This document shows positions 2,902 through 26,063 of a stretch of DNA of 26,063 bases, piece by piece. The stretch's first letter is position 1; every line of letters begins with the position of its first letter. Source of the stretch: a virus; the IMG/VR virus record IMGVR_UViG_3300000117_000144, positions 4,331-30,393 of that record; one strand, 5' to 3'. The notes under the pieces are model-generated. The model did not search any database, was not told the DNA's origin, and saw only the letters and a program-made list of their open reading frames with translations. The position numbers were made by a program, and so were the translations under genes.

Positions 2902-5900
2902 TTATGGTATTGGTGGTTCGGTACAGTCACAGCACACATCGTTTAAGTCTGTTGTTCCGTAACATAACACATCTTCCGTTGGTTGTCTATAATCATATAC
3001 TAAATATAAGTTTGAGCCTGTTGTAGTCATTGTATAGTTTCCAATATATTGGTCTGGCGCAAGAGAAACATCTAAAGGTAAAGCTGTACCTGCAGCAGAA
3101 ATTAAAGAAAGTATACCAGCTGGTGTAGCTGCGTATGTGGTGTTAGTTCTTAAGGCATATAACTCATTTTGAGTAGGCTGAAAAACAAAATTATCAACAG
3201 GTCTTTTATGACAAATTACTTGAACAGAAGCATTGTCAGCAGGAATAACTCCTGCTCCTTGCGGAGCGGTTACTGAATCAAACTGACTGATAATAATAAA
3301 ATCAGTGCCATCTATAAATGTTACCTGCTCAGAATGTAGTGGCGATAAATATGTTCCGTCTATCCATCTATACTCATTGTGTATGGTTTGGCCTACGTGA
3401 GTAGCGTTTGTTATACAAACTTGATACACAGTTATAATCTCAGCAACAGGACACTTTATAGCTACCTTTATAGTAGCACCGCTTTTACCAGTAAGAGTAA
3501 CTTGAGCTTCAGATTCACTAACAATATTTTTATCAAAAACAAAAGAAGAACTTCCATTATTAATAGTGGTTGTTGGCAACACATCTACACCATTATAAAC
3601 TACCTTTATAGTACTACCTTGTGAGTCACTTGCGAATATTTCTATATCTGTATTTCCTACTAATTCTCCTAAATCTATACAATAATTAAATGTTTTATCT
3701 TCAGGAAAAGTAAATGTTCTTTCAATACCACAAGCAATGCAAGATTCTTCTGAAGGCAAATCTTCCTCATTAACACTTAAAACATATTCATTCATATATG
3801 GGTCATACCCTCCTAGCTTTTGAGTGTTTAATCCATTAATAAATCTATCTCTAAACCAAGACCTCATACCAGCTTCAGAAATTACTGTAAGCTGTTCATT
3901 TTGTCCTGCAGAACCTGTAAGCATAATTACTGCACCACGCTTAGCGTCAGTAAAATATTTATTGTAACCCCAAGAACAAAAGCTTTCAGGGTTTCTTGAA
4001 ATACCATACTCTTCTATTCTGGCTATCTGAGTTCCTAAAACCTCTGGTACAGAAGCAACTTGACCTCCCCCAGTGGAGTCGGTTAACAAGTTCTTTCCAG
4101 CCAGAACATAAGAAATTTTATCTTCTTGTAAAACTAATATGTCGGTTTCTCTTCCATGAAGTTTCTCGATTGGACCATATATATCTTCACAAGGTTTAAA
4201 ATTTAGTAAACCTAAGTTAAATTCGTTTAACTTGTTTACATTACTTTCATTGTTGTAAACACCACTATAAGTTAAATCAGCAAAGCGATGCGCTTGCTTA
4301 AACTCTAATTCAGAAGTAGATGTAGTTCTTTCTCCTAAACTAAACTCTTTACCTGCAATTGAATCTCTAATTCTATAACTTTCTACACCATTACCAAAAG
4401 AATAACAATTGAAAAAGTCTGTTAATATAATAGCAGACTGAGTACTTGTTTGATTTTGTACATTACCATTGTGTCTTCCTGTTGATTTATCTATACTAAA
4501 TACATCTGCAGATTCATACCATAAATCTGGAGTAGCATCTTGTGGTTCAGTTTCAAAAACCAATGTATTCTCAGCTCTAAAAACTTCTATCTTAGCATTA
4601 ATACACGCTCTTCTTTTACTTGAATTTTTAGCGCCAGAACATGAGTTAGTTCCAACTAATCCGAGAGAAAGTTGATTGTTACTTGTTGCTCGTAAAAACT
4701 GCCACTGATATTCACATCGGTTTTGCGGCATAGCAGCTAAAGCATTATTTGTTGCAACACCTGTCTGTATAGCAGGGTTATAATAATTAGCATAGTAAGG
4801 AGCTGGACAATCAGGGTCTCCTGTAATTCCAGATACCGCTCCACTATCTAATAAAGAAGCGATGTTATCTCCATCCCACCATTCTTTAAAGCTATCATAA
4901 TCCTGTGAAGCTGTTAGCTTTAAATCTAATGTATAACGTCTTCCATCACAAGCACGATTCCCTGTTCCTTTTCTTCTAAAGTCTACATATATATTTATTC
5001 TTGAGCCTGCAGGCAGTGAGTAATCAATAAATTGTCCTGGGTTATCTGGGTCTTCAATGCTTACTGGATAAGCTACTCTTGGGTGGTCGTTTCTTCTTCT
5101 ACCACAATCACCTCTATTGCCATATAAAACTGTCGGTAAATCGCCTTGAACCACCTCAAAGTCATTAGGTATTATTTTCATATAAGTACCTGCTGGAACA
5201 GGAATGTCTGTACCATTAGAGTCTTTTGGTGGAGGGTCCATAAAGTCTTGTGTCTGAGCTTCTTTCTGTAAAACAGTAGCATACTGACATCTTGTAGTCG
5301 GCCCACCAGTATCAGCCTTTACCCTAAGTCTATCCCCCTCTTCAACCTTTCTAGAGTTTTCACCCTCTAATAAAAAGTATGTTGCTGCTGTTCCTACCTC
5401 ATCAAAAAATATGTTTGAATAAACTGTATTGTAATCTTCAAAATCTGGCTTTATACAAAGCTTATATCGGTCAGCCCAAGATGGCGCTAGTTGCGATGGG
5501 GGAATATTTACTTCAATAGAATTTTGAAGAGATGCAGCCGAGCAACCTACGTGAACAGTATTGTTAGGACTAACAAGAGCTGTTGATGAACGATTAAACT
5601 CGTCCATATAAACAATACCTACTTCATAATCTCTATCGCTATGTAAGCTTTTTGGGTTTCCAATACCTAAAAAACTACCTTCAGCAAAAGTAACAGTATA
5701 GTATTCATAAACACTTTGTGTAGGTGTAGTTAAATCATCTACAAATCTCATCGCTGGTACAACAAAACCAATCTCAGAACTACCTGGGCTAGAAATTACT
5801 TCTATAGGCTGGCCAGCCGTGGTAATACCGCTTTCAAATTTTATCAATGAATCCAGTGTATTTGGAATAGAACAATTCCATTCATCTGTAATAGTTGTTC

Positions 5901-7347
5901 CGTCACATGAAGTTTCATTTCCAGGTACAGGGTCATACACTGGAAGTATATTTGCTGCCGTTCCTATTGTCTGTATAAATAAAGGGTCTTGTGATAATTC
6001 ATAAGCACTTCCAAAATCTATAGGCAATATATATGTAAAGTCTAGTTCTAAATTTGTAGACTGTTGAGACGGAAAAGGGGTTTGACCAGAAAATTGAGAA
6101 TGAGTATATCGTATTTCAAAAGTAATCGCTGCGCCAGCTTTTAACTCTACATCATCAAAATCAAAAAACACCGCAGCATTTACAATGTTTTGACTTCCAT
6201 CAATATTATACGTAAAAGAATCAGTTCGGTCATCAATAGTTTCAGCTCCAATTTCTTCGGATAAAAGTCTACAAAAATACTCAAGCCTTATAGGGTTAGT
6301 GTTTAAATCTAATAAGTCATAACCATCTACATAATTACCATAGATTAATCTATTGCCCATTAATGTTTGAGCTTGAGCTTTTAAAGGAACATTATCAAAT
6401 AACCTAACTAACTGTGTTGGGTTTAAAACAGTATATATTTTGCTGTTACTGAAATCTAAACTGTAATCTGTATTATCTGCATATCCAAGATTTTGTTTAT
6501 CAAATATCTCTATAGACTTTATAATACTTGATGTGGTTTCAGCAAAAACAACTTCTATAGCTTTCACTAAAGGACCTCCACTGTTATAAGTAACTTTAAC
6601 GTTGTTGAATGCGTTTGTCATTCCCTCATTCAAACCTGATTCTATTTTATAATCAAATCCTTTAGGAACAAAAGCTGGTTCTGTGAATTGTGATAAAGCA
6701 GAATACTCGCCATCTTCATATCTATATCTATAAGCAAATGTTATAAATCTTTCTTCTATAAAATTTTCTTCACCAGATAAATTTGTTAGCTCAAATGATG
6801 GAGCTGCAACTGGTGGCTTTTTAATTACTAAAAGTTGTTCTGCTAAATCAGGCGAGGTTGAGTTATAATTTCTAGTAATGTTTATAAATCTAGGTTGGTT
6901 GTAGTTATCAGTCCAGAATAATAAATCCTCAACTCTGTTAACTCCAGTAATTAAATAATCTTCATTGAAATTTAAAACTGTTTGCCCTGAACCAGTTGTC
7001 ACAACATGATACGTTAATAAATTTAATTGCACATTATATGATACAACTAAGTCTACTATACCTTTTCCTGAGTGTGCTGGGTCATGTACAAACCAATACA
7101 ATGTTTCTCTTTGCCCATCCTCATAAGCTCCAATACATTTAGCCTGAGAGCTTAAAGGCACTCCTTCATGCTCTAATGCTGTTAACTGCTGATTACCTCT
7201 ACTATTTTCAACCGAACCAACTTCAGATTCTTCAGTAGACCCCAGCCTAATATTAAGTGCGTCAATATACTCGCCATTAGGGAGTAAGCGTTCATCAACG
7301 CTTTTATTCATGCGCCCTGCAATAAAATTTCTAGTAATCTCTGCCAT
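2902..7347 (-). CDS. Giant tail protein (crAss-like tail stabilisation / muzzle type)
   Basis: A 1481-residue protein, the largest complete gene here. The N-terminal segment (about residues 7-55) contains NFIAGRMNKSVDERLLPNGE followed by DALNIRLGSTEESEVGSVEN, which I recognise as the conserved start of the large tail protein of Bacteroidota phages with crAss-like architecture. The rest is long, beta-rich and has scattered Cys residues, ending in a CCDC cluster near residue 1473. No peptidase or lyase motif was seen. It follows the tail tube-like gene with a single intervening base, matching the tube-then-stabilisation-protein order of crAss-like genomes. It probably forms the distal part of the short tail. 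The N-terminal match is strong; the exact structural role is from known relatives. Confidence 0.75.
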   Translation of the reverse strand: MAEITRNFIAGRMNKSVDERLLPNGEYIDALNIRLGSTEESEVGSVENSRGNQQLTALEHEGVPLSSQAKCIGAYEDGQRETLYWFVHDPAHSGKGIVDLVVSYNVQLNLLTYHVVTTGSGQTVLNFNEDYLITGVNRVEDLLFWTDNYNQPRFINITRNYNSTSPDLAEQLLVIKKPPVAAPSFELTNLSGEENFIEERFITFAYRYRYEDGEYSALSQFTEPAFVPKGFDYKIESGLNEGMTNAFNNVKVTYNSGGPLVKAIEVVFAETTSSIIKSIEIFDKQNLGYADNTDYSLDFSNSKIYTVLNPTQLVRLFDNVPLKAQAQTLMGNRLIYGNYVDGYDLLDLNTNPIRLEYFCRLLSEEIGAETIDDRTDSFTYNIDGSQNIVNAAVFFDFDDVELKAGAAITFEIRYTHSQFSGQTPFPSQQSTNLELDFTYILPIDFGSAYELSQDPLFIQTIGTAANILPVYDPVPGNETSCDGTTITDEWNCSIPNTLDSLIKFESGITTAGQPIEVISSPGSSEIGFVVPAMRFVDDLTTPTQSVYEYYTVTFAEGSFLGIGNPKSLHSDRDYEVGIVYMDEFNRSSTALVSPNNTVHVGCSAASLQNSIEVNIPPSQLAPSWADRYKLCIKPDFEDYNTVYSNIFFDEVGTAATYFLLEGENSRKVEEGDRLRVKADTGGPTTRCQYATVLQKEAQTQDFMDPPPKDSNGTDIPVPAGTYMKIIPNDFEVVQGDLPTVLYGNRGDCGRRRNDHPRVAYPVSIEDPDNPGQFIDYSLPAGSRINIYVDFRRKGTGNRACDGRRYTLDLKLTASQDYDSFKEWWDGDNIASLLDSGAVSGITGDPDCPAPYYANYYNPAIQTGVATNNALAAMPQNRCEYQWQFLRATSNNQLSLGLVGTNSCSGAKNSSKRRACINAKIEVFRAENTLVFETEPQDATPDLWYESADVFSIDKSTGRHNGNVQNQTSTQSAIILTDFFNCYSFGNGVESYRIRDSIAGKEFSLGERTTSTSELEFKQAHRFADLTYSGVYNNESNVNKLNEFNLGLLNFKPCEDIYGPIEKLHGRETDILVLQEDKISYVLAGKNLLTDSTGGGQVASVPEVLGTQIARIEEYGISRNPESFCSWGYNKYFTDAKRGAVIMLTGSAGQNEQLTVISEAGMRSWFRDRFINGLNTQKLGGYDPYMNEYVLSVNEEDLPSEESCIACGIERTFTFPEDKTFNYCIDLGELVGNTDIEIFASDSQGSTIKVVYNGVDVLPTTTINNGSSSFVFDKNIVSESEAQVTLTGKSGATIKVAIKCPVAEIITVYQVCITNATHVGQTIHNEYRWIDGTYLSPLHSEQVTFIDGTDFIIISQFDSVTAPQGAGVIPADNASVQVICHKRPVDNFVFQPTQNELYALRTNTTYAATPAGILSLISAAGTALPLDVSLAPDQYIGNYTMTTTGSNLYLVYDYRQPTEDVLCYGTTDLNDVCCDCTEPPIP

Positions 7348-10251: not shown

Positions 10252-11748
10252 TTATGATTGGAAAATCACAAAGTTGTTTGCACCCATAGTACATACACAT
10301 CTTTCAGACAGGAAGTTTACTTCCATAGCATCTAAATCAGAAGTCATTGCACCACCAGCTGAACCTGTAATCCAAGTCTTGTACTTTCTGTCTTCAGTTT
10401 CTGAAGCTCTGTATCGTACATGTAAGAAAGGACGCTTAGCATTCTTTCCAAGGATTTGGTCGTAAACAGTAGTTGAACCAGCTGGTACTAATAAACCATT
10501 TACAGCACCTGTTCCAGTTAAACCACCACGCATAGTTGGGTCGTTTAGGTATTTCCAGTCAGACTTGTAGAAGTCATAACCTCTACGGAATCCAGTGAAT
10601 CCAAGATTCAATGCCATTTCCACGTCATTGTCAAATAGACCATAAGAAGTACCATTAGCTGTAGTTCCACCAGTTCCACCTTGAGCAGAACCATTAAGCT
10701 GAGCTAACATGTCATCAATGTCAAATCCAAATTGTCTGTTTAAGAAAAGTACGTTTTCTTCAATTGCACCTTGCTTATCTAAACGAGAGATGATAGCATC
10801 AAAATCCACTAGTGAAGTTGGGTTACCACCTGCCCATACATTTCCTCTGTTTTCTACTGCGTGGAATACACCTTCAGAACCTTTGTTTCCTACATCTCCA
10901 GGTGCTGTGAGTGCTCCAGAATTTGCTTCTGCTGGTACTGCTTCAATCATAGCTGTTTCCAAGTAGTCATCAAAACGTAAACGAGTTTCATGCTCAGACT
11001 TCAAATACCATAGGTAACCTGAAGCTCCGTTTTCAGTAGTCACTTCAATCCATCCGATTTGAGCCATATCAGAACCTGATACTGCATACTTATCTTTGAT
11101 GATAATTGGTGAGTTGTCGAAGATTTCATCTTCAGCTTCTAAAGAACCTTGCATTCCTGCTGTTCCTTTTTTGAATTCAGAACCATAGATAAAGATAGTT
11201 GCGTCAGCATTACCTGCGCCTGTTCCACCTGTGTAACCTGCAGCGTTATAGAAAGCTACAGAAATTTGGTTAGCATTTAATGAACCTGCAACACCTACTG
11301 CAGTTACGATTCCTTTATATTCTCCTGAGCCATCATTGTTAGAAACAACAACAGTTTGACCTACACGAATAGCGATAGTTCCTGCTGTTAATCCTGTTGC
11401 TGCTCTGTCTGGCACTAATGCATCGTTAATGTCAAATGTTACATTATCTCCATCAACTGTTGCTGGTGCTCCACACTTTATATATTTAGTGTGTAGTCTT
11501 CCTTGCTCTGCCCACTTTACTAGGTCTGAGTTACTTGGTAGCTCAGCTCCTACTAAACGTAAGAAAGAAGAAATAGTTCTGTTACCATAACGCTCAAATT
11601 CTTTTTCATAAGTGTCTGGTAAATACTGATTCAAAAAGTTGAAATCAGTAATGTAATTTGTAGCCAACGGCACTTGCTGTGGTGCTGGCTGTAGCGCAAA
11701 ACCTGGTCCTACTGGAGTAGTGCCTGGCCCTAATAATTGTCCTGCCAT
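10252..11748 (-). CDS. Major capsid protein (HK97-fold, crAss-like type)
   Basis: A 498-residue protein, the usual size for crAss-like capsid proteins. The N-terminal arm contains FERYGNRTISSFLRLVGAEL (residues 51-70), then WAEQGRLHTKYI (79-90), which I recognise from this capsid group. The remainder is Gly/Ala/Thr rich with alternating strands, including a later block LNLGFTGFRRGYDFYKSDWK in the second half. Codons look ordered and the composition is less A/T-skewed than its neighbours, consistent with a highly expressed virion gene. It follows the acidic scaffold-like gene by 21 bases and is followed by a strong terminator. HK97 fold is inferred from the family. Confidence 0.8.
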   Translation of the reverse strand: MAGQLLGPGTTPVGPGFALQPAPQQVPLATNYITDFNFLNQYLPDTYEKEFERYGNRTISSFLRLVGAELPSNSDLVKWAEQGRLHTKYIKCGAPATVDGDNVTFDINDALVPDRAATGLTAGTIAIRVGQTVVVSNNDGSGEYKGIVTAVGVAGSLNANQISVAFYNAAGYTGGTGAGNADATIFIYGSEFKKGTAGMQGSLEAEDEIFDNSPIIIKDKYAVSGSDMAQIGWIEVTTENGASGYLWYLKSEHETRLRFDDYLETAMIEAVPAEANSGALTAPGDVGNKGSEGVFHAVENRGNVWAGGNPTSLVDFDAIISRLDKQGAIEENVLFLNRQFGFDIDDMLAQLNGSAQGGTGGTTANGTSYGLFDNDVEMALNLGFTGFRRGYDFYKSDWKYLNDPTMRGGLTGTGAVNGLLVPAGSTTVYDQILGKNAKRPFLHVRYRASETEDRKYKTWITGSAGGAMTSDLDAMEVNFLSERCVCTMGANNFVIFQS

Positions 11749-12924: not shown

Positions 12925-15360
12925 TTATCTGGGGTCAAATTCTGCTAAATCAAACCCATCTAAACTATCTTCATTAGACTCAAAGTTTTGAGGAGGAAGA
13001 TTGTTTTTTCTTTGATTAATTAGCTTAGACTGCTCTGTGTTCTGCTGGCTAATACGTCCTGCCTTAGCCGTTTCTCTCTGAACTTCTCTTTTTGCCAGAG
13101 CTTCTTCTGATATTCCTCTTAACTGTTGATTGTAATTAAACTCTTCAGCCATCAACTGACTTTTTAGCATAGCTTCATTCTTCATCTTCTCAATTTCAAA
13201 AGCTATCTCGGCTTGTTTAATCTGCATCTTAGCATTCATCTCTGCTTGAGATTTTTGCATAGCTGCTTGCGCAGCCATTTGCTGAGACTTTAATTGTTGA
13301 GCAGCCTGCATCTGTTGTTTTAACATAGCATTCTTCTCATCACGTTCTTGCTTTTGTTTTCTTTTTACTTTTAGTAATTGATTAGCAAGTTTAATGTTTT
13401 TAATTTCTCTTATATCAATAGCGTCTTCCAGATTTATATCCTGTTTAGATAAAGCCATTTGAATGTTAGCCTCAAGCTGAGCCTTCTCTTCTTCATCAGG
13501 TGAAACCTCAATAAATATACCGAAGTCATAAATATATAAATCAGATATATCATTAAGTATACTTACGTTATACTTTCCTATTTTATTTATAAAGTCTTCT
13601 TTAAAATCAGAATACTCTAATATATCCGCTACTCTATATGTTAAAGCTTCTGCTAGTGTTCTATAAACATATAAGCTTCCTTGAAGTATATGTCTAGTAG
13701 CTGTGTTAGAGTTTAATGCAGCAAGCTTCTGTAATCCGACTAAAGAGTTAGGGTCAGGTGTTGAACCATCTCTAGCTTCATTTAATCCTGTTACAGTTCT
13801 AATCATGTTTAGATAATGATTATAGTTTGTAATAAGCATCTGAGTTTTACTAGCACCACTATTAGATGTAAGCTGTTGTATAGGAACTCTAGCTTGATTG
13901 AAGTCTCCGTCTTGTGTATAGCTTCTCCCAATTACAGAACCTGTTTGGAAATATAATCTTAATGCGTCTTCAGGATTATACGCAGCTCCTGTCCCCAGGT
14001 CAACTTCATTTAATCCATCTGCATCTATAAATACTCCATCAGGCACAGTCCTGGCTATAACTTGTTGTAATTTCAAATGTGTAATCTGAATCAAATCAGC
14101 AAAAGGAATCATTCTTCTAACTAATGATTCAATCACCCCTTTGTACATTCTTGGAGCTACGGCTACATAGTTTGGTAATGCGTGTTGTGAAGAAGACTGA
14201 GGGCGAACCATATTACTGGCTAGCTCCCACTTCAAAAGAATATCAGTACCCATCACCATTATTCCGTCATACCAAACATCAATAGTTTTTGAAACCTTTT
14301 CAAATCTACCCTCTTCCATCATTTCTGGTGGAGGGTTGAACTGGTCATCTTTTTCTATCATCTTCATAGCTCCACTGTCCGTAACTTTTTTCTTATAAAC
14401 CATCTTCTTACTGGTTTTATAATTGAAGTACATCAAAGTTACTGTGTCTCTATAAAAAATATCATTCTGATAATACTGTGCTACGTTGTAGTAATCATAC
14501 CAGCTTTGACTATATTTAGATATCTTATCTAAATCTTCATTAGTTAATGTTGGGTCAATCTTTAGAAGCTCCGTAATAGGAACAACTTTAATTTCACCCC
14601 AATAAAAACAATCTTTAAAATGTGGGTCTTCAGTATAACTATACACAACATTAGCAGGGTCAACGTATTTAACCTCTACACCAGAGCCTGGTAAAAACTC
14701 ATGCTTAGCTACACCAATACCTAATACTGTTAAATCATAATCAATACGTTTACGTGTATCTATATAATGATTTTCTTGAAACATAGTATCAATAGCTTCC
14801 TCTTCGGCTATCTCGATAGCAGGCTTATAATTAAGCTGCATATACAATGTAAGTTCTTCATCGTTTTCAGGAAGAGAATCAGGGTCCATAGTAAATGGGT
14901 CTGCTCCTGTCATGTCTTTAATATCTAAAAGTATGTCTTTAGCAGCCATCTGGCCTTCAACCATATCTTGATACTTGCTTCTTTTGCCTTGCGATAATGC
15001 ATCTTGTGCATAAGCTTTCACTTTGAAAAGCCTGTCTGACATTCCATTAACTACAATATCAACAAACTTAGGGAGTATAGGGATAGGTGTCCAATCTAAA
15101 TTAAGATAAGATAAATCTCCGTCTACTGCTAATTCATTTTTATATTTACCAACTGATTGTTCTCCTCTTGCGTATAAGCGTAATCTGTGAAAATCTCGCC
15201 ATTGGTTATAATAACGACAGCCATTGCCGTCTTTTCTAAACCACTCATACTGTATTGCTTGCCCTATCTGTAAGCCAAACTCATCAGTGGCTTTTTCTGC
15301 ATCTGATACAAATTGACTAGGGAAGCCTACAGATGAAATATTTACTTTAACTTCTTTCAT
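12925..15360 (-). CDS. Portal protein
   Basis: An 811-residue protein, long for a portal but normal for crAss-like phages. The segment SYLNLDWTPIPILPKFVDIV (residues 84-103), then NGMSDRLFKVKAYAQDALSQ, is the pattern I recognise for this portal group. Residues 665-775 form a long Gln/Ala/Lys/Met-rich coiled coil, and the C-terminus is acidic. It would form the dodecameric vertex through which DNA is packaged and ejected, with terminase as its docking partner. Its ATG follows the terminase stop directly with no gap, and the scaffold and capsid genes lie next, so the whole packaging/head block is together. Confidence 0.8.
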   Translation of the reverse strand: MKEVKVNISSVGFPSQFVSDAEKATDEFGLQIGQAIQYEWFRKDGNGCRYYNQWRDFHRLRLYARGEQSVGKYKNELAVDGDLSYLNLDWTPIPILPKFVDIVVNGMSDRLFKVKAYAQDALSQGKRSKYQDMVEGQMAAKDILLDIKDMTGADPFTMDPDSLPENDEELTLYMQLNYKPAIEIAEEEAIDTMFQENHYIDTRKRIDYDLTVLGIGVAKHEFLPGSGVEVKYVDPANVVYSYTEDPHFKDCFYWGEIKVVPITELLKIDPTLTNEDLDKISKYSQSWYDYYNVAQYYQNDIFYRDTVTLMYFNYKTSKKMVYKKKVTDSGAMKMIEKDDQFNPPPEMMEEGRFEKVSKTIDVWYDGIMVMGTDILLKWELASNMVRPQSSSQHALPNYVAVAPRMYKGVIESLVRRMIPFADLIQITHLKLQQVIARTVPDGVFIDADGLNEVDLGTGAAYNPEDALRLYFQTGSVIGRSYTQDGDFNQARVPIQQLTSNSGASKTQMLITNYNHYLNMIRTVTGLNEARDGSTPDPNSLVGLQKLAALNSNTATRHILQGSLYVYRTLAEALTYRVADILEYSDFKEDFINKIGKYNVSILNDISDLYIYDFGIFIEVSPDEEEKAQLEANIQMALSKQDINLEDAIDIREIKNIKLANQLLKVKRKQKQERDEKNAMLKQQMQAAQQLKSQQMAAQAAMQKSQAEMNAKMQIKQAEIAFEIEKMKNEAMLKSQLMAEEFNYNQQLRGISEEALAKREVQRETAKAGRISQQNTEQSKLINQRKNNLPPQNFESNEDSLDGFDLAEFDPR

Positions 15361-17583
15361 CTATCTAATTAAATCGCTTGTTAATCCCTTATTGGTATAC
15401 CTTGCAAAGTTAATGGAAATTTTTGAGCTTTTCTTTTCAGGTGTATAAAGATGCTTTTGACAAGCCATAATCGCTAAACCGCTGCTAATAGATGCATCAA
15501 ACTTAGTTCTGTTTCCTATATCAAACTTAGCCCAGTCTTCTAGAGTCCTAGTAAACGGCATAGAACCCATCAGGTCAGAGTCTCTAAATATACCTTCCAT
15601 ATCTAATCCAATATGCTTTTCAATATATGATTCTATTGCAGCTGCATGAGCTTGTTTTATATCCTCACTGGAGTTTGGTATACCTCCTAATTCTTTTTCT
15701 GTTCTTGATAATTTATTAAAAACCTTATCAGGCCTATTCATACTAAAAGCTCTGTATCCTCTGTTTTTAAAATGATACAAAAGCCTAGGCTTGTTATTCT
15801 CAACAAGTATAGGCATTCCATAAAACACACAAGCCATTAACACTTCTTCAAAAAATATTTCTGCCGTTTGAGGTCTTGCTACATACTCTAAGAAAAACTC
15901 ATTGCTTGGAGCTTCGTCCATGTTAAATTTTGTAAGACCATGTAGTGCACCATTAGAACCTCTTCCACCTACTGTTCCAGATATGTCATAACTATCACAA
16001 CCAAAAGCACCCAGGTGTTCATTACCTGGCATCTTTTTGCCATTCCTATTTATGACTCTATTCTGTAAATTTTTGTTAGGAGTCCACGACACCAAGAATC
16101 TTCCACGATTATTAGGTGTCCATATAACCTTAGAATCTTTTATTCCATCTTTCCATGAGAAAGACCCTCTTGTTAAATGATACTCTTTAATTGTAGAATC
16201 ATTGTAATCAATCTGTTGATATATTTTTGTTAAATTAAATAAAGACTGTTTACTTTCATCTCTGAAAGCATGTGACTCAGTTCTTGGGAACTGTCTATAA
16301 AATTCATTTAAAGCATCAGGGTCATTCTTTAAGCTATCAACTTCAGCTTCCCAGTAATCTATTGCACCATTTTCTATAATCTCACCATCTACACCAATAG
16401 TTTTTTCTTCAGGCTTTCTAAAAACAGGCAATCCATATCTGTCTATAAATCCTTCCATATTCCATTCCATTGGAATAAATAAGTTATATAGTCCGCTTTT
16501 GGTTTGGCCATTAGAATTACGTTTACTTAATGAAGAATCTTCGTATAATTTTTTAAAATTATCTCCACCCTTACTCAATGCATTAGAAGTAGAGCCCATC
16601 ATACATTTACCTATAATCTTACTACCTAAACGTAAACAGGTTTTTGTAACACGCCAGTTGTTTAAAATATTATTTGGCTTTATCCATTTACCACTTTCAT
16701 CATGCACTAACAATAATAGCTTCTCACCATCATAAGAGTTGTCATCTGTGTTTTTCCAATCTATAGTTGTATCTAATCCTAACAGTTCTTCTTTATCAGC
16801 ATCATACATGTTTTTCTTTGTTATCTTAGACGCTGGTATTCTAAACGCTAATTCTGTTTTAGGTTTATCCATACCATCTTGTATAGGCTTGAAGAAGAAT
16901 GGTAATCTGTTTGCTATAGGAACAACTTTATCAGTAAACATTTTCTTAGCGTCTGCTCCTGTTTTAGATAGTATTCCAACTCTAGAGTCTTTTGCAAGTG
17001 TTCCTGTGTTAACGCTCTCTGAAGAACCCATGTAAGAAAACCCTGAACGTCTTATCTTTAAATAAGTCATTCCAAAACTTCTGTTGTCAGCTTTGCATGC
17101 TTCCCAATATAAATAAAATATTCTATTAGCCTCTCTATAATCTGGATAACCCACATCTATAGATGTCCATTGAAGATACATATAGTGAGCTCCTGATATG
17201 TATGTAGGAACTCCATTGTTCATAAACCAATAACCTAACTCTCTATTATCAAATTCATTCTCAATATAATCAACCCAGTTATTTTTAAATTCACTAGGCA
17301 TTTCATTCCATTGAAATATTGATTGAATTTTACTAAGAGGTTTTGGAATATCTATTCTTTCCCAGTATTGCTCAGGTTTCTTCTTTGAACGTGAATGTAT
17401 TTTTTTTGGTTGTTTAGGTAGCCCAATAATAAGACCCTGTATATTTATAATATCTCCAAGCTCGCCGCTTCTGGATATACACACAAAGTCATACTTCTTG
17501 TTGTATCCGTACTCCCAACTGTTATTCTTGTTCTTGTTGGTAACTACGGATTTAGGTACGTAATCTTGCACCACCTTATACAT
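15361..17583 (-). CDS. terL: Terminase large subunit
   Basis: A 740-residue packaging ATPase-nuclease. In numbering from the ATG chosen here, a Walker A-like RRSGFS is at 178-183 and Walker B LLLLVHDES has catalytic D295 and E296. A coupling motif GSTSN is at 330-334. The C-terminal nuclease half shows GCDSYD (D530), ILVENN (E595) and KFDASISSG (D696), three acidic residues in the usual order for the RNase H-like terminase nuclease. The frame extends upstream to a TTG at 17610, which would overlap the preceding gene by 23 bases. The ATG at 17583 lies 4 bases after that gene's stop and is preferred. Length and motifs fit crAss-like terminases. Confidence 0.85.
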   Translation of the reverse strand: MYKVVQDYVPKSVVTNKNKNNSWEYGYNKKYDFVCISRSGELGDIINIQGLIIGLPKQPKKIHSRSKKKPEQYWERIDIPKPLSKIQSIFQWNEMPSEFKNNWVDYIENEFDNRELGYWFMNNGVPTYISGAHYMYLQWTSIDVGYPDYREANRIFYLYWEACKADNRSFGMTYLKIRRSGFSYMGSSESVNTGTLAKDSRVGILSKTGADAKKMFTDKVVPIANRLPFFFKPIQDGMDKPKTELAFRIPASKITKKNMYDADKEELLGLDTTIDWKNTDDNSYDGEKLLLLVHDESGKWIKPNNILNNWRVTKTCLRLGSKIIGKCMMGSTSNALSKGGDNFKKLYEDSSLSKRNSNGQTKSGLYNLFIPMEWNMEGFIDRYGLPVFRKPEEKTIGVDGEIIENGAIDYWEAEVDSLKNDPDALNEFYRQFPRTESHAFRDESKQSLFNLTKIYQQIDYNDSTIKEYHLTRGSFSWKDGIKDSKVIWTPNNRGRFLVSWTPNKNLQNRVINRNGKKMPGNEHLGAFGCDSYDISGTVGGRGSNGALHGLTKFNMDEAPSNEFFLEYVARPQTAEIFFEEVLMACVFYGMPILVENNKPRLLYHFKNRGYRAFSMNRPDKVFNKLSRTEKELGGIPNSSEDIKQAHAAAIESYIEKHIGLDMEGIFRDSDLMGSMPFTRTLEDWAKFDIGNRTKFDASISSGLAIMACQKHLYTPEKKSSKISINFARYTNKGLTSDLIR

Positions 17584-17587
17584 ATCG

Positions 17588-17869
17588 TTATTTTGACCTA
17601 CGTTCTGCAAACCCTTGTTTTGTATCTACTTTATTACTACTTTCTGCAATAGACAAAGCTTCTTTCTCCGCTTCTATTCTGCTTAATATTTCAAACGCAT
17701 CAAATATAGCTAGCTTCTTAGTTGCTGCCGCATTCTTAAGCCTATCCGCAGCTAAATCGTCTTCAGGGTCTGGCTTTATAATATCCTCTTTAGCAACTTT
17801 AATTAGTTGATGAACGGCCCTTCTAGCTGCGTCAATAATTTCTAATTTAATTTCCCTGTTTGATTTCAT
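17588..17869 (-). CDS. Small protein in TerS position, candidate small terminase subunit
   Basis: A 93-residue helical protein with an N-terminal helix (REIKLEIIDAARRAVHQLIK, residues 5-24), an acidic turn DPEDDLAADRL, and a second helix around LKNAAATKKLAIFDAFEIL (45-63). There are no Cys residues or membrane segments. It sits directly upstream of the large terminase with a 4-base gap, and its start overlaps the preceding gene by ATGA, so the three are coupled. Small terminase subunits are small, helical and found here in many phages, but no helix-turn-helix could be confirmed. A different packaging or structural role is possible. Confidence 0.5.
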   Translation of the reverse strand: MKSNREIKLEIIDAARRAVHQLIKVAKEDIIKPDPEDDLAADRLKNAAATKKLAIFDAFEILSRIEAEKEALSIAESSNKVDTKQGFAERRSK

Positions 17870-18429
17870 AATATCATTGTTATTTGATGGTCAAACATTC
17901 TATATAATTTTTCTCCATCTACTTCAAATTCATACTCACTATCTGGCTTGAATGATATTAAATCACCTTTTTTAACACCTTGATTAATTAAAGAAGTATT
18001 AGGATAAATCATTTCTGCAACTAAAGGCTCTTCACTTGTGTTCTTAAATATAATAGATTCTTTTGTTTTTATTGGTTTAACATAACAATATCTATCATGT
18101 GCATACCACTTATCATCTTGTTTAAACATAAAGAACTGTTCGCTGTCAACTAAAAACAAGTTGTCTTTTAAAAAACTTTTGCCGCTTTTTCTACGTCCCT
18201 TAATATCATTATAGAATTTAAAAACATTGTGGTGAACAAGAAGAGTGTCCCCTACCTTTATAGGCCCACAATAATTTATAGGTAACGCTTTTACTTCAGC
18301 ATACCTGTTTGAATACCTAGCATCTTCCTCAGAAGAACTAACAAGAAAATCTATCCCACCAATATTTTTTGTATTGGAATATCTTTTGTTTTCTCTAGGA
18401 GTTACTATAAAGTCAGTTGGTGATTTCAA
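17866..18429 (-). CDS. Tandem GroES-like co-chaperonin candidate
   Basis: A 187-residue protein that reads as two GroES-like units. Unit 1 (about 6-101) has a first strand DFIVTPRENK, then a GGI (24-26) with a loop in the position of the GroES mobile loop, RYAEVKALP (42-50), and IKVGDTLLVHH (57-67). Unit 2 (about 110-187) has YCYVKPIKT, EPLVAEMIYP and the strong GroES-like ending GVKKGDLISFKPD, then YEFEVDGEKLYRM and ITMIL. GroES ends with the same order: VKVGD, acidic turn, then a final I-L-A-I strand. Such proteins cap GroEL for capsid folding, as T4 gp31 does. The start is TTG, overlapping the previous stop as TTGA; no in-frame ATG exists until M101. Fold is inferred by eye. Confidence 0.6.
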   Translation of the reverse strand: MKSPTDFIVTPRENKRYSNTKNIGGIDFLVSSSEEDARYSNRYAEVKALPINYCGPIKVGDTLLVHHNVFKFYNDIKGRRKSGKSFLKDNLFLVDSEQFFMFKQDDKWYAHDRYCYVKPIKTKESIIFKNTSEEPLVAEMIYPNTSLINQGVKKGDLISFKPDSEYEFEVDGEKLYRMFDHQITMIL

Positions 18430-18650
18430 AAGTTTATGTTGTATTCAATGGATACAGGTATAGCTGAACTAAACTCTTTCCAAAGAATAACAACATCTCC
18501 ATCTTCTATATATATTTTGTAGGATTGTAATTCGGAATCATATTTAATTAAATGAATCTTATGTGTTCCATTAAGAACTTCTTGCCCTACCAAATAATGC
18601 ATAGCTCCAGACTTATAATCTGGACCGACGGATATTTTTCTTATATCCAT
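18426..18650 (-). CDS. Conserved small phage protein, unknown function
   Basis: A 74-residue protein starting MDIRKISVGPDYKSGAMHYL, then VGQEVLNGTHKIHLIKYD. Residues 40-60 are acidic (YKIYIEDGDVVILWKEF), and the end is SIEYNINF. Predicted beta-rich and soluble. I recall very similar small proteins in marine Bacteroidota phages without an assigned function. Its stop codon is shared by overlap with the TTG start of the GroES-like gene, so the pair is likely translated together, and a role in the same assembly step is possible. Confidence 0.6.
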   Translation of the reverse strand: MDIRKISVGPDYKSGAMHYLVGQEVLNGTHKIHLIKYDSELQSYKIYIEDGDVVILWKEFSSAIPVSIEYNINF

Positions 18651-23373: not shown

Positions 23374-26063
23374 TTATTTTTGTGATTTTAAAATTTCTAC
23401 TTCTTCTTTTAATTCTTGTATTGCTTTTACTAATATCGGCACAAGTTTTCCGTAACTCATTTCAAGCTTTTCTTCATTTTCAGCATAAACTAATCTTAAA
23501 GTATCGTTGTCTAATTCTCTAACTTCTTGCGCTATAAATCCAAAGTCTTTTTTACCTTTATTAGCTGAATAAAATTCTACTTCTGTTTCGTTTCCATCTT
23601 CATCAAACTCTGTTCTTGTTTCTGCTCTATTGTCCCATACAAATTCTCTTGGTTGTAAAGCGTCAATAAATGCTAGACCATAGCTTAAATCTTCTATTTC
23701 TGATTTATCTCTTTCGTCTGATAAAGACGTTATAGAAGTAACAGCGCATCGTAAAGCAGTTACGCTTGAATTACCTAAAGTTATTTCGTTATTTACTGAA
23801 TTACTACTTCTTGTTGCACCATTACCTAAAAGAGTATTATTATTTCCTGAACCACCATCTGCTGAATTTCCTACCATTGTATTGTAGTCCCCTGAATTAA
23901 CTCCTGTACCTGCACTTGAACCTATACAAACATTGTAATCTCCACCACCTTCTCTAAAGGCAAGTCTACCTATACCAACATTGTCTCTGCCTGTTATGTT
24001 TTGCCCTGCACGCATTCCAAAGAAACAATTATTAAAATTTGTTGTAAGAGATTCTCCTGCACCTTCTCCAAAAAAAGTATTACTTAATGCAGATGTAGCT
24101 GATTTTCCTGCGTTATTTCCAAAAAAGGTGTTTAGGGTACCACTTGTTAAATTAACTCCTGCATCAATACCTGCGGTAGTGTTGCCTTGTGGATTACCAC
24201 TCAAACTGCTTGGAGATTCGCCAATATATAAAGAAGCAGTATCAACTAAACAATCACTTAAACCATTTAAATCAGATGCACCACCACCACCTGCGGCTTG
24301 TAATTCTAATTTACCAGCACTTGAGTTAAAAGTTAAAACATCTCCGTTACTTGCACCACTTTGAAGACCTGGTATTCTGAAAGATGTTACGCTTGCATTA
24401 CCTAATGTAATTTCATTAGAAACAGTTGCTGAACTTGCATCAGCATCATATCCAATCACAGTGTTATTAGTACCTGTAGTGATTGAATCTCCAGCTTGAT
24501 AACCTACTGCTGTATTATTACCTCCAGTAGTATATATTAAAGCTTGATGACCTAAAACCGCATTATTTGAACCAGCATTATTACCTCTTAAAGTATTTGA
24601 ACCAACAGCGACATTATTAGCGCCAGTACTAGTACCAGTTCCAGACCTTTGTCCTATAAACACGTTTTGAGTACCAGTATTTCCGTAACCAGCTTGATAA
24701 CCTATTATTGTTCTATAAGTTGCGGTTGTACCACTATAGCCAGCTTGGTAACCTATATATGTATTATCTGTTCCAGAAGTTTGAGAATAACCAGCTTGGT
24801 AACCTATTGAAATATGACCAGCAGCACTATTGTTGTTTCTTCCAGCTTCACTACCTATCTGAACAACGTTAGCTGCATTTGTACTATATCCAGCTCTATA
24901 TCCTATAAGAATACTATCATTTAAACCAGTTCCAGAGCTATAAGCAGTTTGATATCCTAAAAGTGTAGACCGACTTCCTCTAGCACTAAGCCCAGCTCTA
25001 TCTCCTATAGCAACATTAGATGTTCCAGTTCCACTAAAAGAACCACCCAAGGCTTGACTTCCTACAGCGGTGTTGGCTGCTCCTGCCTGGTTTTGACCAG
25101 CTTGATATCCTATATAAGTAGTGCCACTACCAGAAGTATTATTTAATCCAGCAAAAGCTCCAACATATGTAACACCACCAGCAAAAGGGTTTAAACCAAA
25201 ATTTTTACCAGCATCATTACCTATAAGGGTATTATTTACTTGTCCTTGTAGACTACTACCAGCATCAATACCAAGAACAGTATTTCCTTGTGGATTTCCA
25301 GATAATCCTGAAGGTACTTCGCCAACATAAAGAGAATCTGTATCAACTAAACAATCAGTTAATCCATTTAAGTCTGTTGCACCACCGCTAACAGTAGTCC
25401 AACTTGCACCAGAGCCTGTTCCGTTAGATGTTAATACTTGACCAGCCGTACCAAAATTAGCACCAGATAATCCTATTTCTCCGTTAGCACCAATTCTAAA
25501 TTCTTCTTGACCACCTGTTGCAAAAGCTATAATATCAGAACCTGGTCTAAACATACCAGTATTGTTGTCTCCAGTATTAAAAAATGTTAAAATTGGATTT
25601 GTTGCGCTTCCGTCAGAAAGTTCAAATTTATTACCTCTAAATTCTACATCATCCCAAATAGTTAAACCATTTTGAAATGAAGTACCAGAAGCATCTCCAA
25701 ATACAACTCTTGTAGTATCAATAATTAATCTATCATTTGTATCATTATAAGTAAAACCTGGTATAGCACCAAAAGCTCCACCATTATTGTACTGAAGTTG
25801 TGTATCACTACCTGCTGGACCTCCAGAGCTTGGAGTTTGTAATTCTAATTTACCTAAAGTAGAATTGTATGTTAGCACATCTCCGTTAGAAGCTCCGCTT
25901 TGTATTCCTGGTATCTGTAAAGTCGTATGACTTGCGTTACCTAATACAATGAAGTTACTTGCACCAACTGGACTTGTTGCGCCGTCCTTACCTATTATTA
26001 TAGTATTATTCCAAGCGCCAGAGTCCTTACCTGCTCTATAGCCAAGTAAAACATTATCTGACC
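23374..26063 (-). CDS. Large modular tail fibre with S74 chaperone (5' end outside window)
   Basis: At least 895 residues are visible. The frame runs to the window edge, so the GTG at 25878 is an internal Val codon, not a start. Numbering from that codon, residues 199-482 are an array of about 16 YadA-like units (NT.IGYQAG type, around 13-20 residues apart), and 566-692 hold about seven more. The two arrays share a linker (DLNGL.DCLVDT.SLY.GE) and a closing EITLGN.SVT block. The C-terminal ~115 residues form a peptidase S74 intramolecular chaperone: SDERDK (720-725), then DFGFIAQEV and a final coiled coil (LVPILVKAIQELKEEVEIL). In this family the chaperone folds the trimer and cleaves itself before the Ser of S-D-x-R-x-K. 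Confidence 0.8.
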   Translation of the reverse strand, partial: SDNVLLGYRAGKDSGAWNNTIIIGKDGATSPVGASNFIVLGNASHTTLQIPGIQSGASNGDVLTYNSTLGKLELQTPSSGGPAGSDTQLQYNNGGAFGAIPGFTYNDTNDRLIIDTTRVVFGDASGTSFQNGLTIWDDVEFRGNKFELSDGSATNPILTFFNTGDNNTGMFRPGSDIIAFATGGQEEFRIGANGEIGLSGANFGTAGQVLTSNGTGSGASWTTVSGGATDLNGLTDCLVDTDSLYVGEVPSGLSGNPQGNTVLGIDAGSSLQGQVNNTLIGNDAGKNFGLNPFAGGVTYVGAFAGLNNTSGSGTTYIGYQAGQNQAGAANTAVGSQALGGSFSGTGTSNVAIGDRAGLSARGSRSTLLGYQTAYSSGTGLNDSILIGYRAGYSTNAANVVQIGSEAGRNNNSAAGHISIGYQAGYSQTSGTDNTYIGYQAGYSGTTATYRTIIGYQAGYGNTGTQNVFIGQRSGTGTSTGANNVAVGSNTLRGNNAGSNNAVLGHQALIYTTGGNNTAVGYQAGDSITTGTNNTVIGYDADASSATVSNEITLGNASVTSFRIPGLQSGASNGDVLTFNSSAGKLELQAAGGGGASDLNGLSDCLVDTASLYIGESPSSLSGNPQGNTTAGIDAGVNLTSGTLNTFFGNNAGKSATSALSNTFFGEGAGESLTTNFNNCFFGMRAGQNITGRDNVGIGRLAFREGGGDYNVCIGSSAGTGVNSGDYNTMVGNSADGGSGNNNTLLGNGATRSSNSVNNEITLGNSSVTALRCAVTSITSLSDERDKSEIEDLSYGLAFIDALQPREFVWDNRAETRTEFDEDGNETEVEFYSANKGKKDFGFIAQEVRELDNDTLRLVYAENEEKLEMSYGKLVPILVKAIQELKEEVEILKSQK
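23803..24183 (-). repeat. Second YadA-like repeat array in fibre (7 units)
   Basis: Coding repeats with consensus N-[TVC]-x-x-G-x-x-A, such as NTFFGNNAG, NTFFGEGAG and NCFFGMRAG, at roughly 14-19 residue spacing. They lie between the second linker and the S74 chaperone. The left-handed beta-roll is the known structure of such repeats in YadA heads; here it is inferred. Confidence 0.7.
24157..24273 (-). repeat. Fibre linker repeat, copy 2
   Basis: Encodes DLNGLSDCLVDTASLYIGES and then NPQGNTTAGIDAG. It is a diverged copy of 25258-25374. With the nearby SGASNGDVLT block (24298-24360, copy at 25837-25899) it defines the boundary between repeat modules. Confidence 0.7.
24433..25284 (-). repeat. 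First YadA-like repeat array in fibre (about 16 units)
   Basis: Coding repeats with the N-[TV]-x-[IV]-G-Y-Q-A-G consensus (NTYIGYQAG, TTYIGYQAG, NTAVGYQAG) at about 13-20 residue spacing. Unit lengths vary, and at DNA level the repeats have diverged, so this is not a recent tandem duplication. A further pair of units is visible upstream, at about 25980-26060. Confidence 0.7.
25258..25374 (-). repeat. Fibre linker repeat, copy 1
   Basis: Encodes DLNGLTDCLVDTDSLYVGEV and then NPQGNTVLGIDAG. Nearly the same protein text as 24157-24273, with more third-position differences at DNA level, which points to selection on the protein. Confidence 0.7.

Follow-up and report, generated by a model that had tools for sequence, protein, structure and literature searches.

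A predicted two-domain GroES-like co-chaperonin encoded before the terminase in a marine phage of Bacteroidetes

In chloroplasts and the apicoplast, co-chaperonins of the Cpn20 type (Chlamydomonas CPN20 and CPN23, Arabidopsis Cpn20) carry two GroES-like domains head to tail. Cpn20 is reported to keep the mobile loop and the roof in both domains (PMC3542282). Mixed rings of chloroplast Cpn10 and Cpn20 contain seven domains (PMC5780408, PMC3542282), and a homo-oligomer of the tandem protein also works in these systems despite the symmetry mismatch (PMC5780408). Among phages, T4 gp31 and RB49 CocO are GroES-fold co-chaperonins tied to capsid folding; both are single-domain proteins which use the GroEL of the host. 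A GroEL-type chaperonin is encoded by phages EL, OBP and AR9, and is reported to work there without a co-chaperonin (PMC9598537). Proteins labelled ‘chaperonin cpn10’ or ‘co-chaperonin GroES’ are found in the elemo, Calle and phi13:2 phages (Elemovirus and Callevirus of the Pervagoviridae, Baltivirus of the Pachyviridae), and ‘chaperonin cpn10’ is among the genes shared by Pervagoviridae (PMC8776804); the records of these proteins do not mention a tandem architecture. The protein described here belongs to the same family and is thus not an unrecognised orphan: its family and chaperonin label are known. We computed its tandem fold, its family, its conserved position, the selection acting on it and its co-occurrence with phage GroEL and Cpn10.

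The window, i.e. the whole stretch of DNA analysed, is 26,063 bases long and forms the end of a virus contig of 30,393 bases. The contig comes from a marine Bacteroidetes phage, whose relatives include the Cellulophaga phi38:1 group. The coordinates given for the co-chaperonin gene in the initial annotation are correct; the gene itself lies on the minus strand, running from 18429 to 17866, and the plus strand across the same interval contains many stops. The reading frame begins with TTG, and at this position the related loci have either ATG (121) or TTG (68). The features of the locus are presented in Table 1.

Table 1. Features of the window; positions are counted from its first base.
Feature	Coordinates	Strand	Evidence or remarks
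Two-domain GroES-like co-chaperonin (187 aa)	17866..18429	-	PHROG_13932, AF2, Foldseek PDB, dN/dS
Unit 1, residues 1-108, predicted GroES-like barrel, loop with NIGGIDFLV	18106..18429	-	AF2, Foldseek, loop lengths
Unit 2, residues 109-187 and stop, Cpn10 domain	17866..18105	-	Pfam in relatives, hhalign, loop lengths
Conserved 74-aa gene, directly upstream, 4-base overlap	18426..18650	-	in 171/178 related loci
93-aa gene between co-chaperonin and terminase, 4-base overlap	17588..17869	-	in 155/184 related loci
Terminase large subunit	15361..17610	-	phrog_6681 E 2.5e-183
Portal protein	12925..15360	-	phrog_6547 E 5.7e-143; Pfam P22_portal
Virion structural protein, probable major capsid protein	10252..11748	-	phrog_13704 E 8.6e-97
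1481-aa protein	2902..7347	-	Pfam crAss_MUZ, E 1.7e-15
834-aa tail-fibre-like protein	23374..25878	-	Peptidase_S74, E 8.6e-9

The minus-strand run consists of the 74-aa gene, the co-chaperonin, the 93-aa gene, the terminase large subunit, the portal, a 366-aa protein and the probable major capsid protein, which agrees with the earlier placement of the gene beside packaging and head genes. A terminase follows downstream on the same strand in all 184 loci with room to tell, mostly within a few hundred bases. The 93-aa gene is without a family match at 0.01 in Pfam and PHROG; its position suggests a small terminase. The conserved 74-aa gene is a candidate partner of the co-chaperonin, and the probable major capsid protein may be its client. 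Elsewhere in the window, the tail-fibre-like protein contains NTAVG/GYQAG-type repeats and a terminal Peptidase_S74 intramolecular chaperone domain, and the 1481-aa protein matches the muzzle of crAss-like phages; the latter match agrees with the grouping of phi38:1 with the IAS virus (PMC5332604).

Relatives of the tandem protein are found in 85 of 50,697 phage records (Flavobacterium, Cellulophaga and Maribacter phages and one uncultured phage) and in at least 588 stretches of IMG/VR. The gene is under purifying selection, with dN/dS of 0.03-0.12 against eight relatives. The Elemovirus, Callevirus and Baltivirus proteins are full-length matches within the same PHROG family, occupy the same place before the terminase and have the same two-unit architecture; their identity to the window type is only 24-37%. 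Tenacibaculum phage Gundel_1 (L244, Pachyviridae) has a related terminase, and no GroES-type gene was found in its genome, so the tandem gene is not universal in Pachyviridae. Host assignment via genome bins was dropped, as ten MAG contigs carried contradictory labels. One locus (L254; CP070801.1, 870633-877193) has the tandem gene, terminase and 74-aa gene inside a 1.05-Mb MAG chromosome labelled Aenigmatarchaeota; the probable origin is phage sequence that entered the bin during assembly, with an unexpected insertion as the alternative.

Two successive GroES-like units had been proposed from the sequence; both are recognisable in it, and both halves are assigned to GroES/Cpn10 by fold comparison. 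Unit 1 (about residues 1-108) contains DFIVTP as first strand, the NIGGIDFLV loop, RYAEV and IKVGD, and unit 2 (about residues 109-187) contains CYVKPI, LVAEM, VKKGD and VDGEKLYRMFDHQITMIL, the last being a C-terminal strand canonical for Cpn10. Residues 66-68 of unit 1 (HHN) are strongly conserved, lie outside the usual GroES pattern and are missing in the phi13:2 type. Compared directly with Pfam Cpn10 (PF00166), the window protein reaches only 14.8 bits (E 0.03, residues 142-184 only), below the curated cut-off of 21.1 bits; this match is too weak to serve as deciding evidence. The protein belongs to PHROG_13932 (‘co-chaperonin GroES’) by a full-length profile match (E 1.2e-23, residues 1-178 on positions 1-190 of 200). 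Concerning unit 2, solved GroES/Cpn10 chains match it in phmmer at E 0.01-1, the hhalign probability against single-domain Cpn10 is 80-88, and the same unit in the phi38:1, L214 and phi13:2 types lies above the Pfam cut-off (25.4, 26.7 and 33.3 bits).

The sequence evidence for unit 1 as GroES-like is modest. Unit 1 of an elemo phage hits phrog_3188, a GroES family (E 1.4e-3), and elemo unit 1 has S-x-GLILN, corresponding to TSSGLxL in these phages' single Cpn10s. When unit 1 was aligned locally with single Cpn10 in hhalign, the register was correct at a probability below 6, and the match was for that reason not taken as proof. HMM scores exceed all 3,800 shuffled controls (maximum 10.4) in two elemo-type members only (14.4 and 11.6) and therefore count as weak support. 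With Pfam, unit 1 pieces of ten relatives gave no Cpn10 match and only sub-threshold matches to unrelated families.

The AlphaFold2 model of the full-length protein (76 sequences) has a pLDDT of 87.2 and a pTM of 0.80. In the Foldseek search of the PDB its two best matches are 7ekq_R (212 alignment columns, E 7.8e-5, TM 0.55/0.53) and 7ekq_Q (215 columns, E 6.2e-4); ranks 3-36 are all Cpn10/GroES, gp31 or the third 7EKQ chain. 7EKQ is the Chlamydomonas chloroplast ClpP complex with co-chaperonins, in which the co-chaperonin consists of CPN11, CPN20 and CPN23 (PMC8889267). Judging from their lengths, chains R (194 residues) and Q (205 residues) would be two-domain subunits. Both domains contribute to the 7EKQ match, since the query TM for a single GroES chain is only about 0.33. 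The earlier-noted likeness to chloroplast Cpn20 recurs in the best solved-structure match; the identity to Cpn20 is 13-14%, and the phage and chloroplast tandems are likely to be independent fusions. Unit 1 folded alone (pLDDT 86.6) also gives the GroES beta-barrel: its top nine PDB matches are all Cpn10/GroES, with a probability of 1.00 for the first four, and they reach only E 7e-3 to 0.25, so that the barrel is a divergent one. That the tandem is an artefact of one prediction is made less likely by BFVD, whose independently built model of the phi18:3 ‘chaperonin cpn10’ matches over the whole chain (TM 0.76/0.72). Another BFVD entry, the 304-residue viral protein A0A516L046, also resembles the tandem model, with a TM of 0.70 relative to query length; it may have a third unit or some additional domain.

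Based on the models, the 187-aa protein consists of two GroES-like barrels in tandem. Neither a lack of Cpn10/GroES hits in both halves nor a fold without two barrels, either of which would have spoken against the initial annotation, was observed: the predicted monomer has two GroES barrels by fold search, and in profile searches of the halves the Pfam Cpn10 cut-off is passed by unit 2 of several relatives, while elemo unit 1 matches the GroES family. A resemblance by chance, or through a widespread small-barrel fold such as the GroES-like domain of alcohol dehydrogenase, could be read from the weak direct scores of the window protein and from matches of unit 1 to GroES-like domains of medium-chain dehydrogenases. 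These matches rank below Cpn10, however, and this ranking, the relatives' unit 2, the full-length match to a two-domain co-chaperonin and the PHROG assignment together make the explanation very improbable.

GroES grips GroEL by a loop that is long, flexible and hydrophobic at its tip. Between the first and third strand, unit 1 has a loop of 27-31 residues, and G-x-hydrophobic-x-hydrophobic occurs in 72/76 members; counting in a like manner gives 24 residues for E. coli GroES. In the full model this loop of unit 1 has some of the lowest confidence values (pLDDT 64-75 at residues 21-40), as expected for a mobile loop. In unit 2 the loop has 23-25 residues in the Cellulophaga-type relatives (phi38:1 and phi13:2), 16 in all 63 window-type members and 14-15 in elemo-type members; no window-type member (0/63) has the hydrophobic tip motif there. 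A GGI-bearing loop in unit 1 only, as first noticed, is therefore true of the window clade, which differs in this respect from Cpn20 with its loops in both domains. The simplest history, from these comparisons, would be an ancestral unit 2 with a full mobile loop, later lost in the window and elemo lineages.

The shortened loop also bears on a different role, in which the GroES fold was kept and the link to chaperonins is gone, the protein acting in morphogenesis or packaging, e.g. as a head or terminase assembly factor. The fixed place before the terminase, the conserved non-GroES HHN motif and the presence of a single Cpn10 in these phages would fit such a role as well. Yet the loop of unit 1 has GroES length and a hydrophobic tip in nearly all members, Cellulophaga-type unit 2 has a loop of GroES length too, and phi38:1 gp089 is not labelled structural, unlike its neighbours gp091-093; we regard an assembly factor as quite unlikely.

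The partner of the protein had been taken to be the GroEL of the host. Among 17 related records of at least 50 kb, 14 contain a phage GroEL and 16 a separate single-domain Cpn10 above the cut-off, so that a dedicated cap for host GroEL is no longer the simplest reading. The complete genome of phi13:2 (Pachyviridae) has the tandem and a single Cpn10, and GroEL was not found in it. In G004 GroEL is absent and the single Cpn10 lies at the very end of the contig, so GroEL may be cut off; in G019 neither gene was found, and shorter fragments (<50 kb) contain neither. The lack of both in the window is uninformative, because the contig reaches only 7.6 kb upstream of the tandem gene. G001 is the long relative closest to the window, with DNA identity of 80-91% across the main aligned pieces and 96% identity of the tandem protein; its Cpn10 and GroEL share the strand of the tandem and lie 9.6-11.6 kb upstream. 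In contrast to EL, OBP and AR9, the GroEL of the window's relatives adjoins a single Cpn10, about 10 kb from the tandem. The ATPase motifs of GroEL, GDGTTT and DRVDDA, are kept in most of the phage proteins. GroEL has been noted in 36 genomes of the phi38:1 group (PMC5332604), and that of phi38:1 was detected by mass spectrometry (PMC13288928).

A cap like gp31, which replaces host GroES on host GroEL and enlarges the folding chamber, has its precedent in T4 (PMC5780408). The gp31 structures are among the fold matches (2cgt_O, prob 0.96; 1g31, prob 0.94, E 0.5), and phi13:2, with a tandem and no GroEL found in its complete genome, fits such an arrangement. Against this, the phages of the window lineage carry their own GroEL, and gp31 is a single-domain protein and a poorer match than bacterial or chloroplast Cpn10. 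The present protein has two domains and most long relatives encode GroEL, and we consider a host-GroEL cap unlikely in general; host GroEL as partner is likely only for phages like phi13:2, in which no phage GroEL was found.

We consider it probable that the protein is a late co-chaperonin of two GroES-like barrels, which helps head proteins to fold by capping the GroEL of the phage itself. Some findings stand against this: unit 1 of no member tested reaches the Pfam Cpn10 cut-off, phi13:2 has the tandem without a detectable GroEL, and Gundel_1 lacks a recognisable GroES-like gene. Also, a single Cpn10 already adjoins the phage GroEL, and the tandem could be redundant or do something else. In the proposed co-chaperonin mechanism, for which we infer timing, GroEL binding, client and oligomer, the protein would probably be made together with the head proteins, since its gene lies in the packaging/head operon and overlaps each flanking gene by 4 bases. 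Each chain would form two barrels joined by a short linker; the loops of unit 1 would grip GroEL, most likely that of the phage, while unit 2 of the window clade would have kept its barrel and C-terminal strand and lost most of its mobile loop. The tandem would probably cap the GroEL ring, with large head proteins such as the major capsid protein folding inside.

The ring probably has side-by-side barrels like those of chloroplast Cpn20, possibly completed by the phage's single Cpn10; alternatively, it may be a homo-oligomer of tandem chains only. Mixed rings are a concrete possibility because the tandem matches chloroplast co-chaperonins and, as with Cpn20, a single Cpn10 is nearly always present. 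A full chloroplast-type system, in which the phage's own GroEL is closed by a mixed seven-domain lid of single Cpn10 and tandem (e.g. three tandem and one single), is a tentative reading. If true, such a lid would in the window clade have a mobile loop at some positions only, giving an asymmetric, phage-specific capsid-folding lid.

Searching the literature for phage proteins with tandem GroES domains returned only a chloroplast review, which is not proof of absence elsewhere. In the literature searched, no description was found of the phage tandem architecture, its occurrence together with GroEL and a single Cpn10, or the loop loss in unit 2. Tandem Cpn10 has so far been described mainly from chloroplasts (and the apicoplast), and the present family is a widespread version of it in bacterial viruses. 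Phage GroEL, single Cpn10 and tandem in one genome make a simple, genetically tractable system, available in the isolates phi38:1, Calle and elemo. With it one could address how a seven-fold ring works with a lid whose domains are even in number, why both subunit types would be needed in the lid, and how tailed phages fold their large capsid proteins.
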